From the NCBI GenBank assembly GCA_944391445.1, contig CALXTL010000010.1, positions 1-64,000 of the forward strand: a stretch of DNA of 64,000 nucleotides, in the 5' to 3' direction. The DNA is from an uncultured Alphaproteobacteria bacterium (GTDB taxonomy: Bacteria; Pseudomonadota; Alphaproteobacteria; RF32; CAG-239). The number at the start of each line of letters is the position of its first letter. Position 1 is the stretch's first letter. Below the pieces are notes generated by a model that worked only from the letters and a program-made list of their open reading frames with translations, was not told the DNA's origin and searched no databases. The translations under genes were made by a program, and so were the position numbers. Shown here in pieces: positions 7,931-52,650 of this stretch.

Positions 7931-9355
7931 CTATATCAAAAAAGCCTGAGCCAGCCCCAAAAAGATAAAGAAACCGCCGGAATCGGTAATTGCAATCAGA
8001 AAAACACCCGAGGCAATGGCCGGATCAGCCTTAAGTTTATTCAAAGTCAGAGGGATTAAAATCCCGGCCAGAGAAGCAATCGTCAGATTAATCAGCATCG
8101 CCAAAGCAATGATGTATGGGATAACCTTGTATTCCGGAAACCAAAAATATGTAATCAAAGCAATCAGCCCCGCAAAAAGCAGTCCGTTCATCAAACCGAC
8201 CAAAAATTCCTTAAAAATCATACGCAGCGTATTGCCTGATGTCAGTTCTTTGGTCGCAAGTGCCCGCACCACAACAGCCAGCGTCTGCTGTCCGGTTGTT
8301 CCGCCCATCGAGGCTACAATCGGCATCAGCACCGCTAAAACCGAAATTTGGGCAATAATGGCCTGAAACTCTTTCACCACCGAAGCCGCAACAATTGTCG
8401 CACACAAGTTTGTAATCAACCAGACAATCCGCGAACGAAAAATTGACAACGGAGAACGAAACACATCGCCTTCTTCGGTTCCCGACATCAGCATAATATC
8501 TTCCGAAGCCTCTTCGTGAATAACCTCCATCACATCATCAATGGAAATCACACCGATCAAATGTTCCCGATTATCAACCACCATAGCCGACCGCCAGCCA
8601 TATTCGCGAAACATATGAGCTACTTCTTCCTGGTCGGTATCGACACTGATGGGCACAATCTCACCATCCATAATGTCAAACAGACTGTCCGACGGTTTGG
8701 CGCGCACCAGCTTGTCCAAGGCAATCTGCCCCGTCGGACGGAATTTTTCATCAGTCAGACAAATCTCATAAAAATCTTCGGGAAGATCTTCGCTCTTAAG
8801 CAGATATTCCTTCGCTTCTTTGACGCTCCACCAATCCGGCATGCTGACAAACGCACGTGACATCAGACGTCCGGCAGAATCTTCGGGATATGAAAGCGAT
8901 GACTGAACCTGATGTTGCAATTCCGGATCAAGTTTCTGGATGATGCTGTTTTGCTCATTTTCATCCATATGTTCCAAAATCTCGACAACTTCGTCAGAAT
9001 CAAGTTCATTGGCAATTTTGACAATCTGCGGTTCATTCAAACTGTCAATAACCTGTTCCTGAACAACGTCGTTTAATTCCGGAAAGACTTCGGGATTGAT
9101 TTTATCCCCGAGGATTTCAATCAGTTTCGTGCGCAAATGCCACGGCAAAGCCTCAATCAGGTGTGCCAGATCATATTCCGACAAACCTTCGACAATTTTG
9201 CGGACATGAATCGTATCATCATCACGCAAAGCATTCTTGACAGACCTGACAAATTTAGGGCCGAGACCCAGCGCCTGTTTATTTTTACTTTGTTTCTTTT
9301 TCTTGAAATTTTTTGATGACTTGGGAAGCGACTTGTGTTTGACACGTTTGCTCAT
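7931..9355 (-). CDS. mgtE: Magnesium transporter MgtE
   Basis: A 474-residue magnesium channel/transporter. The order is standard: a basic lysine-rich N-terminus, the superhelical MgtE N domain (about 40-150), two CBS domains (about 160-290) that sense cytoplasmic Mg2+, and five transmembrane helices (about 310-474). MPIVASMGGTTGQQTLAVVVR is the conserved pore-proximal segment, and ITDSGGFFIF near the end is also family-typical. GGAGGG precedes the ATG. The tRNA-Leu gene lies immediately upstream on the same strand, separated by a terminator-like hairpin. No magnesium riboswitch is evident in the short leader. Confidence 0.96.
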   Translation of the reverse strand: MSKRVKHKSLPKSSKNFKKKKQSKNKQALGLGPKFVRSVKNALRDDDTIHVRKIVEGLSEYDLAHLIEALPWHLRTKLIEILGDKINPEVFPELNDVVQEQVIDSLNEPQIVKIANELDSDEVVEILEHMDENEQNSIIQKLDPELQHQVQSSLSYPEDSAGRLMSRAFVSMPDWWSVKEAKEYLLKSEDLPEDFYEICLTDEKFRPTGQIALDKLVRAKPSDSLFDIMDGEIVPISVDTDQEEVAHMFREYGWRSAMVVDNREHLIGVISIDDVMEVIHEEASEDIMLMSGTEEGDVFRSPLSIFRSRIVWLITNLCATIVAASVVKEFQAIIAQISVLAVLMPIVASMGGTTGQQTLAVVVRALATKELTSGNTLRMIFKEFLVGLMNGLLFAGLIALITYFWFPEYKVIPYIIALAMLINLTIASLAGILIPLTLNKLKADPAIASGVFLIAITDSGGFFIFLGLAQAFLI

Positions 9356-45717: not shown

Positions 45718-46193
45718 TATTCCACATCTCCTTGGGGTTTGGCCATTCGATCAATGGTTTCCACAAAATCTTCAAAATCTTTCACCTCGCGAAAATCGCG
45801 ATAAACCGAGGCAAAGCGTATATACGCCACATGGTCGAGGTTAGCCAGCGTTTCCATCACATACTCACCGATTTTGGTAGAAGGAATCTCCGTTTCGCCG
45901 GAGCTTTCCAGACGGCGCTGGATGGCAGTCACCACTTTTTCCACCCTTTCGTTGCTGACCGGGCGTTTACGCACCGCCAGATAAATTGAGCGGGCCAGTT
46001 TGTCGCGGTCAAACATAACCTTGTCGCCGTTTTTCTTGACCACAATCAGATCGCGCAGCTGCACGCGTTCAAAAGTTGTAAACCGCGAACCGCATTCGGC
46101 ACACTCGCGCCGACGGCGGATGGCCGTTGAGTCATCCGTTTCGCGGGAATCTTTAACCTGCGTGTCTTCGCATCCGCAGAAAGGACATTTCAT
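45717..46193 (-). CDS. nrdR: Transcriptional repressor NrdR
   Basis: A 158-residue regulator of ribonucleotide reductase genes. The zinc ribbon is CPFCG...CAECG (3-34), followed by an ATP-cone domain (about 45-140) with [23 protein letters not shown] overlaps the murF stop (ATGA), so it is translationally coupled. Order murF-nrdR-nusB-def-fmt is compact; nrdR-nusB adjacency is common in alphaproteobacteria, but murF upstream is less so. Confidence 0.97.
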
Positions 46194-47521
46194 TGCGGCA
46201 ACTTTCCTTTTTCCAGCAGTGCATCAGTCACCTGATACAGTTTTGAAGAATATCTTGCTCCTTTTATAAGGACAATATCATTATTTTGCAATAGCTTATT
46301 TAACAAAAAACTGTCCAAACCGTCTTTATTTTCGAAATAATACTGTTCTTTGGAGGGCGGAAGCTGTGCCAGCATATCTTTCATCTCCGGGCAGACGCCG
46401 ATCACCACGTCAACGGAGCTTGCCGCCACCACCCGGCCGATTTCAATATGGCGGGCTTTGGAAGTTTCGCCCAGTTCGGCCATTTTGCCGAGCACAACCA
46501 CCTTACGTCCGTTTGTTTTCATCTTATCCAGAGTTTCGATGGCAATTTTCATGGCCTCGGGCTGGCCGGAATAGCTGTCGTCAATCAGGGTAAAAGAGCC
46601 GCCGGCAGGCAGCTTCAACACATGTTTGGCGCCGCGCCCGGCCAAAGCTTTGAAGCCGGATAGATGTTTTGCCGCCCGGAAGACATCAAGCCCCAGTGCC
46701 TGAATCAGGCTCAAAACGCACCAGGCATTATAATAGTTATGTTCGCCCTCTTCTGCCAGTTTCAGCGGAACATCCGGGTGCGCATTTTTCCCAAAGCGGA
46801 CAATTTTGGCGCCGTTTTCAAGAGCGCGCTGAACCAGCAACCCGGCAAAATTTGTATCTTCGTTGATCACGGCCAGACCGCCTTTTTTGAGCGATTTAAA
46901 GATTTCAGCCTTGGCTTCGGCGATTGCCTCAAAATTCGGAAAAAATTCGATATGCATCGGATAAACATTGGTGATAAGGGCAATATCCGGCTGCACATAA
47001 GAGACAAGCTCCTCAATCTCTCCTTTGGCGCTCATCCCCATTTCAATCACGGCATAATCGGCGTTCATATCCAGTTCGCAAAGAGTCTGCGGCACGCCGA
47101 CAAGATTATTGTGGTTTCCGTCGGTGGCAAAAGTTTTGCCAAACAGGCTCAGAGCAAAACGCAATTCTTCTTTGGTGGTGGTTTTGCCGGCAGACCCGGT
47201 CAGGCCGATCACCTTTCCCTTAAACAGCGATCGGTTATAAGCGCCGATAAGCCCATAGGCCTTTAGAGCGGAGGGCACCACGATCTGCCGCTCGGGCGGA
47301 ATGCCGTCCACCAAATGTTCGACAACCGCCAAAGCGGCGCCTTTTTTCAAAACATCGGGCACAAAGTCGTGCGCATCAAACTTATCGCCTTTCAGGGCAA
47401 TAAACAAATCGCCGGGACGGATACGTCGGCTGTCGGTAGATACGCCGGTAAGGGTTGCTTCGGCAACCGGCTGATGATAATCCAAAACGGCGCATAATTT
47501 CCGTGATGAAATTTTTTCCAT
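46190..47521 (-). CDS. murF: UDP-MurNAc-tripeptide D-alanyl-D-alanine ligase
   Basis: A 443-residue Mur ligase that adds D-Ala-D-Ala to complete the peptidoglycan precursor pentapeptide. The N-terminal substrate domain has [21 protein letters not shown] (about 24-44). The ATP site is [15 protein letters not shown] (about 104-118), with [11 protein letters not shown] close by. The C-terminal ligase domain has [19 protein letters not shown]. It is the first gene of the murF-to-fmt run. Upstream lie intergenic tandem repeats. Confidence 0.96.
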
Positions 47522-47597
47522 GCCATTCTCCTAAAATCTGGCGGTAAGTATAGAAAAAAAAGATAAATATTTTCTTTATTTTTTCCCCTCGTCCGAA

Positions 47598-47709
47598 CAT
47601 CATTTAAGACACGTCGCCCCCGCCGGCACGGTCATGTTCGGACTTGATCCGGACATCATTTAGGGCACGTCGCCCCCGCCGGCACCGTCATGTTCGGACT
47701 TGATCCGGA
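47598..47709. repeat. Tandem intergenic repeat, 56-bp period
   Basis: Two near-identical 56-bp units each run from CATCATTTA through CGTCGCCCCCGCCGG and end GGACTTGATCCGGA. The block lies upstream of murF. The unit ends recall the short palindromic repeats seen in many alphaproteobacterial intergenic regions. Confidence 0.85.
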
Positions 47710-47710
47710 C

Positions 47711-47747
47711 ATCCAGGTCAAAAATATAGCTATATTAATCCCTGGAT
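47711..47747. repeat. Palindrome flanked by ATCCAGG and CCTGGAT
   Basis: ATCCAGG at the left and CCTGGAT at the right form an inverted repeat around an AT-rich loop, between the two tandem repeat families. Confidence 0.6.
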
Positions 47748-47763
47748 CCCCGGGTCTATTCTT

Positions 47764-47860
47764 CGCTTCGCTCAGGCCCGAGGATGACAAAAGAAAGGGC
47801 TCGCTTCGCTCAGGCCCGAGGATGACAAAAGAAAGGGCTCGCTTCGCTCAGGTTTGATGA
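47764..47860. repeat. Tandem intergenic repeat, 38-bp period
   Basis: About two and a half copies of a 38-bp unit beginning CGCTTCGCTCAGG and containing CGAGGATGACAAAAGAAAGG; the last copy is diverged. Such GGATGAC-type repeats are spread over many alphaproteobacterial genomes. Confidence 0.85.
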
Positions 47861-48129
47861 TGACAAAAAAAGAAACCTCACTGACGTTCAAACCCGAGGA
47901 TGACATTCCTTTACCCGTCACACGCCGTCAACAAAGAAAAAGTGGATAAAACAAACATAATCAATTGCCCAGAACTGTTTCTGTGTTACACTCTCTTCGG
48001 CTTTTGAACGGCCGAATATACACATAAAGCCAGAATCCCGACAATCACGGTTGCCGGGAGCGAGCATTTTTTTATTAAAAAAGGGTCGTCCACAATATGC
48101 AAACGCATATTGTTCAGACAACAGTGACG

Positions 48130-48263
48130 ACAGTCTCGGTTTTGTTTGGTCTTCTTCCGAGAACAACAGTAACAATTCTTGGAATTTGAACACCAATAAT
48201 GGCAATCGCAACAATAACAATAAGAACAACAATAACGCGGTTCGTTGTTTCCAGCTTTTTTGA
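48130..48263 (+). other. DGR template-repeat-like sequence
   Basis: In the frame starting at 48051, the stretch GFVWSSSE is followed by 25 codons of which 17 are AAC or AAT (Asn), then AVRCF and a stop at 48263. The core 48161-48240 has about 38 adenines in 80 bases. Template repeats of diversity-generating retroelements look like this, because adenine positions are the ones randomised on copying; a W-S-S-E lead-in and a V-R end are typical of C-type-lectin or Fib-succ-like variable domains. It is probably not translated itself. The minus-strand Leu-rich frame opposite is its shadow. Confidence 0.72.
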
Positions 48264-48310
48264 TAAAAAATATCCGTCCGGCGCCAACCAATTAGGAGAA
48301 ACAGACCAAG

Positions 48311-48470
48311 GTGCAGTATGAGCTTTTTGAGCAGCCCGCAACCGGACAAATTGCTCTGGAAGATGTTTTCAGAGCATATTACGATTGCCGCCGGCGCAAA
48401 TCAAATACCGCCTGCGTCGCCAAAAACAATATCGCCGCGCCCGGCACAAACAACTTCTGGCAACAGCCGC
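48311..48470 (+). pseudogene. Reverse-transcriptase-like gene fragment (N-terminus)
   Basis: From a GTG at 48311 with AGGAG 12 bases upstream, the frame reads LEDVFRAYYDCRRRKSNTA near codons 17-35. That pattern (aromatic, Asp/Cys, basic run, Asn-Thr) opens DGR and retron-type reverse transcriptases. After codon 36 the resemblance stops, and the frame runs into the convergent glyA 3' end. No catalytic YxDD-type motif is seen in the window. It is thus a truncated remnant, probably of the RT that served the adjacent template repeat. Confidence 0.62.
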
Positions 48471-49727
48471 TTAGCGATATATCGGAAAGCGCCGGCACAA
48501 GGCAACCGCCTCTTGCCCGACACGGGCAATAACCGCCTCGGCATTGCCGGTTGAAAGCGCCTCCACCACATCGGCAATCCAATGGCCGATCTGTGTAAAC
48601 TCTTGTTCCTTAAAGCCGCGCGTTGTGCCGGCCGGCGTGCCGACGCGGATGCCGGAAGTAATTTTCGGCGGCATCGGATCAAACGGCACGGCATTTTTGT
48701 TGCAGGTAATATGCGCTTTATCCAAAGCATCGGCCGCGGCCGCGCCGGTCACGTTTTTCGAACGCAGATCAGCCAGCAGCAAATGCGTATCCGTCCCGCC
48801 CGAAACCAGCGTCACCCCTCTGGCGGCAAGAGCCTCTCCCAAAGCTTTGGCATTTTTGACAACCTGCGCTGCATAGTCGGCAAACTGCGGCGTCAGCGCT
48901 TCTTTAAAGCAAACGGCCTTGGCGGCAATCACATGCATCAGCGGCCCGCCCTGCGCCCCGGGAAAAACAGCCGAGTTGATTTTTTTGGCCAGATCTTCGC
49001 GATTGGTCAGGATCATGCCGCCGCGCGGGCCGCGCAATGTCTTGTGTGTTGTGGTGGTCACCACGTCGGCCCACTGCAGCGGATTGGGATGGACACCGCC
49101 GGCAACCAGACCGGCAAAATGCGCCATGTCCACCATCAGATACGCCCCGACTTTGTCGGCAATCCGCCGGAAACGCGCAAAGTCGATCTGCCGCGGATAA
49201 GCCGAGCCGCCGGCAATAATCAGCTTGGGGCGATGTGCAAGTGCCAGTTTTTCCGCCTCGTCATAGTCAATCAGCCCGTCTTCGGCGCGCACGCCATAAG
49301 CCACGGCCTGCAGCCATTTGCCCGAAAGCGAAACTTTTGCGCCGTGCGTCAGATGGCCGCCGGCATCCAGGCTCATACCCATAATAACATCATGCGGCTG
49401 CAACAAAGCCAGATACACCGCCGTGTTGGCCTGACTTCCCGAATGCGGCTGCACATTGGCAAACCCGCTGTTGAAGAGTTTTTTGGCGCGCTCAATAGCC
49501 AGATTTTCTGCCTCATCAACAAATTCGCAGCCGTGATAATAACGCCGGCCGGGATACCCTTCCGCATATTTATTGGTCAGAACCGACCCCTGCGCTTCCA
49601 TCACCGCCGACGACACAATATTTTCAGAAGCAATCAGCTCGATCTGCTCTTGCTGGCGCTCAAGCTCTTTGGTGAGAACGGCAAAAATTTCCGGATCTTC
49701 ATGTTGCAAATTTTCCTTAAAATCCAT
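48471..49727 (-). CDS. glyA: Serine hydroxymethyltransferase
   Basis: A 418-residue PLP enzyme that converts serine and tetrahydrofolate to glycine and methylene-tetrahydrofolate. It has [10 protein letters not shown] near residue 30, the substrate loop [18 protein letters not shown] (about 55), and the PLP lysine in [13 protein letters not shown] (about residue 225). The ATG at 49727 lies one base after the rpiB TGA stop, with GGAG in the end of rpiB. An upstream in-frame extension was rejected. It ends 1 base after the RT-like fragment. Confidence 0.97.
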
Positions 49728-50799: not shown

Positions 50800-52566
50800 T
50801 CAAAAACTAATCTTCAATCCCAAAGATCCTTCCACCGGGATGCGAACCGATTTGTTGCCAAACATTGTGGCAATATTGGCAAAACCTTCCGCATGTTCGC
50901 TCAGATGAACATTCATTCCCGCCCCAAGTCGGAATGACGTTCCACTGATATTTTCCGTAAACGTCCAGTCGGAAACCGTAATCTTGCTCTTGCCGGAAAA
51001 TTCTCGCAGCAAACTGGCCGTTGCGTAAATTTCTGCCTTATCATTCCAGTTTTTGCCAAGAGCAAACCCGGCGCGGCCGACGGCTGATGTTTGTTTTTTT
51101 CCTCTGACCGGCGTATTGAAAGAAGTGCGATAATCGACATCATCAATATCCATAAAAAACATTTGCAGCTGCGGTTCAATAAAATAGCCATTGTTCAGCA
51201 GAAACCGACGACCAATCTCCGCAGACAGACTATATGCATCCAGATCATATTTGGAATCTACCGGCAATCCGGAAGGAACATGGCTGCGAATTTTTTGTTT
51301 GTGCCGATAATATGAAGCCACTAAATCCAAATAAAAATTTTGTTGGCTGACAGCCGTTGCATAAACCGAAAAAGAATAAGTCTCGCCATCGCCGCGGCCA
51401 AAGCGGACATATTTTTGCGAAGCATCCGTATAACCGCCGCCGGCACCAATTTTCAAACGGGACAGCCCGCCAAGCGGCACAACATAGTCCGCACCAAACT
51501 GCCCACCGTAGACATCAACATCAACCTTGCTGCCTTCGCCCAAGTCAAACTTGATCTCCCGACCCAAAGATCTAACCCAAAGCCCGCTTTTAGGAGTCAT
51601 GCGCGTTTCACTCAGACGGGCATGTATATTATCCAAATGCGTATAAAAAATTGAGCTCAGTGTCGCATAGGTATCTTTGGCAATAACAGACGTATCCGTA
51701 TAATCATAAGTCCTCTGCAAATACCATCTGCCGGCATCTTCCAAAAGCGTATACTGAAACGCGCCAATATCCATCGCGCCGCCAACCAGATAAAAATTTT
51801 CCGTATTGTCTGCCGTCCTGGACAATAAATCAATCTGATCGGGAAATTCGCTTTCCGAACTGTAATCAGCCACCACCAGGCCGAAATTGCCGCTGCCTTT
51901 GCTTACGTTGAGAATATCATTATTGCCGCTGCCAAAATTCGTCCGGATGTTAAAACGTCCGTTGCCTTGCAGCTCGGCAATATCCACCTGAATTGGTGCG
52001 CCGCCGAAAGAATTAAATGTTATCTCGGCGTTATCCAGGCTCAATCTGTCAAACTGATTATCGCCGACAACAGTAAGCGCGGCATTCGTCAACGAAACAT
52101 CACCTTGCATACGCCCGCCTTCATAAAGCGCAATCACCCCGCCGCCGGCTGTCAGTATATCGGAAACGGCGCCGGGAAGAATCATTACCCCGCCGCCGTA
52201 CAAAGACAAATTTTCAATCAAACCGCTGTCTAAATTGACAAAACCGTCATACAGTACTGTGTCATACGCCGTCCCGCCGTGCACAACCAGCTCACCGCCG
52301 CGAATAACCGTATCATAAGCCACACCGCCGGCAGAAATATATTGCCCGCCGCCGGAAATAATCTGACTGCCGTTGGCCGTGCCGCCGGCGCCGATATCCT
52401 GAACCCCGCCAATCTCAAAATTATTAGCCGTGCCATAAACATTTTGCCGGTCCCCTGCGCCAATACTGCCGTCTGCAACCGTCGTGCCGGCCGGCACGTT
52501 TGTCACGCTGGCCGCCGCATCAAAAGAAATCAGTGCCAGGAAAAAAATCCATTGTCCCTTGCGCAT
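50800..52566 (-). CDS. AIDA-type autotransporter
   Basis: A 588-residue outer-membrane protein. A signal peptide (about 1-19) precedes a Gly-rich passenger of degenerate AIDA-like repeats (GGxAYDTVxxGG, about 45-150). A beta-helix and linker follow (about 150-300), and a C-terminal autotransporter barrel (about 320-588) ends in GLKISF, the terminal Phe expected for BAM recognition. The passenger is short, pointing to an adhesin or a surface-shaping factor. GGAGG lies upstream of the ATG at 52566. Confidence 0.9.
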   Translation of the reverse strand: MRKGQWIFFLALISFDAAASVTNVPAGTTVADGSIGAGDRQNVYGTANNFEIGGVQDIGAGGTANGSQIISGGGQYISAGGVAYDTVIRGGELVVHGGTAYDTVLYDGFVNLDSGLIENLSLYGGGVMILPGAVSDILTAGGGVIALYEGGRMQGDVSLTNAALTVVGDNQFDRLSLDNAEITFNSFGGAPIQVDIAELQGNGRFNIRTNFGSGNNDILNVSKGSGNFGLVVADYSSESEFPDQIDLLSRTADNTENFYLVGGAMDIGAFQYTLLEDAGRWYLQRTYDYTDTSVIAKDTYATLSSIFYTHLDNIHARLSETRMTPKSGLWVRSLGREIKFDLGEGSKVDVDVYGGQFGADYVVPLGGLSRLKIGAGGGYTDASQKYVRFGRGDGETYSFSVYATAVSQQNFYLDLVASYYRHKQKIRSHVPSGLPVDSKYDLDAYSLSAEIGRRFLLNNGYFIEPQLQMFFMDIDDVDYRTSFNTPVRGKKQTSAVGRAGFALGKNWNDKAEIYATASLLREFSGKSKITVSDWTFTENISGTSFRLGAGMNVHLSEHAEGFANIATMFGNKSVRIPVEGSLGLKISF

Positions 52567-52650
52567 GAGTACATCCTCCGTCCACCAGATATAATCTGCA
52601 AACACCGCATTTAAACCCAGACAAACATAATACGCCATGCAAAAAGAAAC

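Follow-up and report, generated by a model that had tools for sequence, protein, structure and literature searches.

The window analyzed here, a 64,000-nt stretch of DNA, very probably carries at positions 48029 to 48453 the relic of a chromosomal diversity-generating retroelement (DGR) once ordered as leader, template repeat (TR) and reverse transcriptase (RT), perhaps with a trailing Avd gene, which has lost its RT core and is unable to diversify. The relic lies between murF (46190-47521, minus strand) and glyA (48471-49727, minus strand), whose stop codon abuts it, in the 25-contig, 1.45-Mb assembly (100% estimated completeness) of an uncultured alphaproteobacterium from the animal gut. The original prediction of a decayed TR-RT half of a DGR between these two genes is borne out by homology to intact DGRs of the same genus. 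Over roughly 48014-48405 the window is collinear with G005 and G007, two genomes of that genus, and the shared succession of leader, TR and RT start marks descent from a complete DGR. This reading is based on the homology of the leader, TR and RT N-terminus, on the parts missing from the assembly, on covariation in the leader and on the adenine bias of the relatives' repeats.

The TR core (48146-48257, plus strand) is homologous to the TRs of G007 and G005, and adenine accounts for 40 of the 112 aligned nucleotides. It lies in an open reading frame (48051-48263) in which 17 of the 25 codons of NNSNNSWNLNTNNGNRNNNNKNNNN encode Asn, with the WSSSE lead-in and AVRCF end that had been noted from the sequence. 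Leader and TR together matched two other genomes of the genus (E values of 1e-38 and approximately 1e-53), the better match being 81% identical across 216 nt. Since this homology extends well beyond the A-rich part, a chance origin as Asn-rich low-complexity sequence, for which only the A-rich tract speaks, can be set aside. A BLAST search of 48100-48480 within the genus recovered the TR at 83% identity in G005 and 80% in G007, with the RT start as a second piece in G005. In both genomes the near-copy is followed by a full DGR RT, and the Asn run can thus be taken as a DGR template, as had been proposed. The G007 TR, moreover, has an adenine-specific variable repeat (VR).

The translated TR stretch also resembles positions 63 to 115 of the C-type-lectin-like Lcl_C domain (E value of 4e-5), the type of domain that DGRs target, as would be expected if the stretch were instead a VR or pseudogene of an Lcl_C target gene. 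However, it is preceded by a DGR leader and not by the rest of the domain, its adenines are intact as in templates, and an RT start follows exactly as in G005 and G007. We therefore find a target-gene origin hardly credible and regard the stretch as a template. Its location had been correctly predicted; the start of the element had been placed at 48130, whereas it actually lies at 48029, as approximately 100 nt of structured leader precede the TR.

Alignment to related genomes recovered an intact locus in G007, which comprises leader and TR, a 445-amino-acid RT (L032:7041-8378) and Avd (8365-8712). In G005 and G007, the TR is followed by a full RT starting with LEDVFRAYY.CRR.K..T and then by Avd; the order among relatives is either leader-TR-RT-Avd or Avd-(leader-TR)n-RT. 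Pfam identified RVT_1 (E value of 3e-16) and bAvd (E value of 2e-16) in G007, and bAvd is present in other relatives as well. The G007 RT matched the reverse transcriptase in PDB entry 8ub7, which we take to be the BPP-1 DGR enzyme, with an E value of 2e-30. The scores of the intact homologue against the curated NCBIfam models group_II_RT_mat (91 bits; cut-off, 300), retron St85 (65; cut-off, 235) and Drt3a (55; cut-off, 200) all fell below the cut-offs, giving no assignment as a group II intron, retron or DRT enzyme. Intact RTs occur in G007, L129, L130, G016 and G012, and those of six relatives carry IGNLTSQ or IGNLSSQ together with YGRYVDD. Mismatches between TR and VR fell at adenines in 20 of 21 cases in G007, 15 of 15 between L132 and L133 (Fisher P = 4e-8) and 13 of 15 in G016 (P = 2e-5).

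In these respects (a TR, an RT with IGxxxSQ and YxDD, Avd, adenine-specific TR-VR differences) and in their Lcl_C targets, the relatives' elements match BPP-1-type DGRs, whereas the relic differs in its broken RT and in having no target that could be found. Inferred from DGR biology (PMC12875486), the transcript of an intact element would fold its 5' leader, RT and Avd would make a cDNA of the TR that is error-prone at adenines, and this cDNA would overwrite VRs in the Lcl_C domain of surface proteins. A phage origin gained no support, as there was no DNA match to phage records and RT identity was below 60%. A second, distant RT (approximately 27% identity) was found at L025 (G007, contig C136) and L026 (G017, contig C2) beside a gene ending in GARGRSLPKRMPN; this locus is probably a prophage DGR with a phage target. 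In the G007 target (L175:41-1148), an in-frame TGA separates the signal-peptide part from the Lcl_C part and may reflect a pseudogene, a sequencing error or recoding.

Of the RT itself, two pieces are left in the window. When the 1735 stop-to-stop frames in the window were all compared with a profile made from the relatives' RTs only, the first match was the open reading frame 48296-48529 (RT residues 11 to 47; 31.5 bits; E value of 8e-9). This agrees with the original assignment of the frame at 48311, which opens with MQYELFEQPATGQIALEDVFRAYYDCRRRKSNT, as the start of a DGR-type RT, and with the profile match expected of it; approximately 33 codons of the RT N-terminus remain (48311-48409, plus strand). 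The second-best match among the 1735 frames (8.7 bits, with an E value of 0.067 over the whole window; the next scored 4.3 bits) was the frame 48331-48471, which carries AQIKYRLRRQKQYRRARHKQ and resembles profile positions 416 to 435 of the RT C-terminus. This probable C-terminal piece (48394-48453, plus strand) directly adjoins the N-terminal one in the right order but out of frame. At the DNA level, its match did not rise above shuffles, and the short RT fragment alone was not recognized by Pfam, PHROGs or NCBIfam. No intact DGR-type RT with IGxxxSQ and YxDD is present in the relic. The arrangement of the two pieces suggests that the RT was probably deleted internally rather than merely truncated, with the junction probably within about 48394-48409 and some 370 codons, including the catalytic core, lost. 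The catalytic core had been correctly described as absent from the window, while the probable C-terminal piece had gone unseen. In the order of losses that we infer, the deletion would have brought codons ~43 and ~414 of the RT together in different frames, and Avd would have been lost, with no target left in the assembled sequence.

The remaining components are missing as well. There is no room for Avd in the window, because the glyA stop codon follows directly at 48471; Avd is, however, not universal in DGRs. The RT family PF00078 yielded no candidates in the window's genome. The A-biased near-copies of 48130-48263 that had been anticipated elsewhere in the genome were not found in its assembly, either by a pattern search allowing three mismatches or by blastn at an E value of 10; near-copies exist in the relatives, and these, together with the RT profile match, uphold the DGR identification. 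The only Lcl_C match in the assembly is the TR itself, with no second target domain. Given a genome with no RT, no VR and no other Lcl_C domain, the first of two options left open by the original prediction, decay or targets elsewhere, fits better. With the RT deleted, Avd lost and no target in the assembly, the element can therefore no longer diversify anything.

The absence of target and RT is not absolute, as flagellin genes break contigs in this assembly and a target could thus lie in one of its gaps. Indeed, all that the assembly shows of flagellin is a C-terminal stub of 26 residues where a contig begins (C23:3-80), despite an intact flagellar apparatus, and the leader and TR are well kept, as would be the case if an RT and targets, such as flagellins, hidden in such gaps were still using the TR in trans. 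We nevertheless consider use in trans improbable, since no RT occurs in 1.45 Mb at 100% estimated completeness and since in the relatives RT and Avd adjoin the TR, the very place where they are deleted at the relic. Loss of the target through loss of flagella was also considered and dropped, given the intact apparatus and the position of the flagellin end at a contig edge.

Upstream of the TR, the relic has retained a structured leader RNA of the DGR template transcript (48029-48132, plus strand), scoring 94.1 bits (E value of 2.3e-20) with R1, a covariance model built without the window sequence. The same architecture was found in 12 leader-TR units from the window genome and relatives. Across the family, the model detected leaders in 24 of 152 genomes, which represent 9 of 16 genera. 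Hairpin P1 (48036-48059, plus strand; UCCCG.CAAU / GUUG.CCGGGA) is closed by a GC pairing of 48029-48030 with 48064-48065, and 8 of its 10 pairs show compensatory changes among 43 distinct sequences. Hairpin P4 (48092-48113, plus strand; ACAAUAUGC-AAAC-GCAUAUUGU), with compensatory changes in 8 of 9 pairs, forms a perfect 9-bp helix in the relic. It is enclosed by helix P3 (48085-48131, plus strand; 48085-48090 with 48126-48131), for which compensatory changes were seen among G000, G005, G007, L129 to L132 and G016. Folding of 48029-48125 was far more stable than that of shuffled sequences (z = -4.3). Across P1 to P4, 18 pairs were compensatory, and the covariation score was 0.417 versus 0.193 in shuffled alignments (0 of 500). 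In the alignment of the 43 distinct leaders, which is fitted to the covariance model and hence biased towards it, pairing in P1 and P4 (closing GC pairs included) reached 96%, both-side changes numbered 212 and the covariation score was 0.631 versus 0.215 when shuffled.

A long-range helix, P2 (48068-48270, plus strand; 48068-48083 with 48255-48270), would loop the TR. Almost every one of the 12 sequences had it in its minimum-energy fold, with 77% of cells paired and compensatory changes in 3 of 16 pairs; it is A/U rich and weaker than P1 and P4, and the alignment is out of register in G012 and G032. Pairing of the leader with the TR tail is therefore suggestive only. Rfam matches to CrcZ, SNORD109A and SpF66 were dismissed as chance matches, A-rich or weak. 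The first hairpin of the Rfam RT-7 RNA (RF03028) aligned to P1 from the same first base (E value of 7e-5), although only 48 nt aligned and the score of 27.7 bits was below the cut-off of 116.8; RT-7-like first hairpins were seen at 48029-48076 of the window and at L226:3935-3985. It is conceivable that RT-7 represents the leader of template RNAs in DGRs. The reading from sequence that preceded this analysis had correctly recognized a DGR, whereas the leader RNA, the C-terminal piece of the RT and the array and flagellin context had escaped it.

The state of the leader bears on how long the element has been dead. Its score of 94 bits is within the range of the other copies (42 to 106 bits). With a score near that of live copies and with 38 of the 42 template adenines in common with G007 still present, either the decay is recent or something is still selected. 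To our knowledge, dead DGRs are rarely caught with their RNA scaffold intact. Retention of the leader-TR transcript for a different role, as a structured RNA that outlived the RT, would account for this score and for the perfect P4. Recent death, however, accounts equally for the conservation, the element diverges faster than expected, and no convincing forward promoter pattern was found; such a role is therefore very improbable, and the retained fold would instead reflect recent death. Identity to G007 is 75.6% for the relic versus 79.5% for L130, a record that matches G095, a genome outside the genus. This suggests relaxed constraint on the relic, although the distances would look alike had the DGR been transferred horizontally.

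The genomic site seems to be the relic's own. The murF-glyA spacing is 13 to 121 bp in ten relatives and 359 to 1145 bp in others, the wider gaps often holding a small lipoprotein-like gene, and no DGR was found in any relative whose gap was readable. In G005 and G007, the DGR sits behind rsmB, where the window genome has no DGR trace. An ancestral DGR site between murF and glyA is thus unsupported. In the left flank (47592-47910, no strand assigned) lie dispersed intergenic repeats of 56-nt and 38-nt units, CGTCATGTTCGGACTTGATCCGGACATC and CGCTCAGGCCCGAGGATGACA, which recur at L182:150-300, near the flagellin stub and, in similar form, after Avd in G007. On the other side of the relic, a 612-amino-acid autotransporter-like protein (50800-52638, minus strand) has, judged from its sequence only, a repetitive passenger and a beta-barrel-like C-terminus.

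In several relatives, leader and TR form a cassette that is tandemly repeated between Avd and RT, with seven units in G066 (L215:5306-7038), four in G127 (L216:802-1676), three each in G012 (L034:7108-7891), G097 and G068, and two in G032; the templates within the arrays of G066, G127 and G012 differ. Each of the three G012 templates has its own targets, as the other templates fit clearly worse under symmetric scoring (adenine plus other mismatches: L241-TR1, 12+1; L231-TR2, 15+1; L249-TR3, 14+4). Lcl_C matches numbered 28 in G012 and 27 in G032, a few of them being the templates themselves. The DGR of Stenotrophomonas SKA14 has two TRs, six VRs and DUF1566 targets (PMC6642488). It likewise combines more than one TR with several targets of related domain type; the relatives described here differ in that their templates, as many as seven, follow one another in strict tandem and that every template has a covarying leader of its own.

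In G016, L129 and L133, the gene adjoining Avd encodes a flagellin-like protein. Pfam and NCBIfam both recognize the N- and C-termini of flagellin in L036, which L129 and L133 match. In these targets (L036:4520-6880, minus strand; L129:9228-10649, where the contig ends inside the VR; L133:1232-3562), the VR lies in a central Lcl_C insert. For flagellin-like targets next to RT or Avd, TR-VR differences are exclusively or almost exclusively at adenines, and three relatives thus appear to diversify a flagellin-like protein. Flagellin has been named once in a list of DGR targets (PMC6642488), and we found no detailed account of it as a DGR target in the literature. In G134, from another genus of the family, a leader and truncated TR run straight into a flagellin C-terminus (L224:5910-6196), an apparent second DGR relic. 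Flagellin-Lcl_C fusions also occur in G014, G003 and G017 (L007, L008, L009, L015 and L044), with 13 Lcl_C matches in G014; no leader was found in these three genomes, nor any RT in G003 and G014. The fusions may once have been DGR targets, or gene conversion may diversify them.

The relic itself is an ordinary decayed DGR that shows loss by deletion of the RT core; its lineage, with folded template cassettes, tandem arrays and flagellin targets, stands out as a novel form of DGR. In BPP-1, a 3' spacer is described as the structured, RT-recruiting part (PMC12875486), whereas the relatives have their conserved structured RNA on the 5' side of the TR and only a short TR-RT spacer. Tentatively, and with something short of even confidence, we propose that this lineage uses self-contained template cassettes, in which every TR comes with a folded 5' leader of its own and a helix between leader and tail closes it, and in which this leader, not a long 3' spacer as in BPP-1, would recruit, and perhaps prime, RT-Avd. 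If so, templates could be duplicated into arrays, with as many as seven members, to supply many surface proteins, flagellin filaments among them. Model R1 provides a searchable marker by which DGR templates can be recognized even after loss of the RT, and the comparison reveals templates arrayed in tandem and, in gut bacteria, flagellin among the diversified targets. As flagellin is both a major antigen and a receptor for phages, metagenomes would allow a direct test of its programmed variation.
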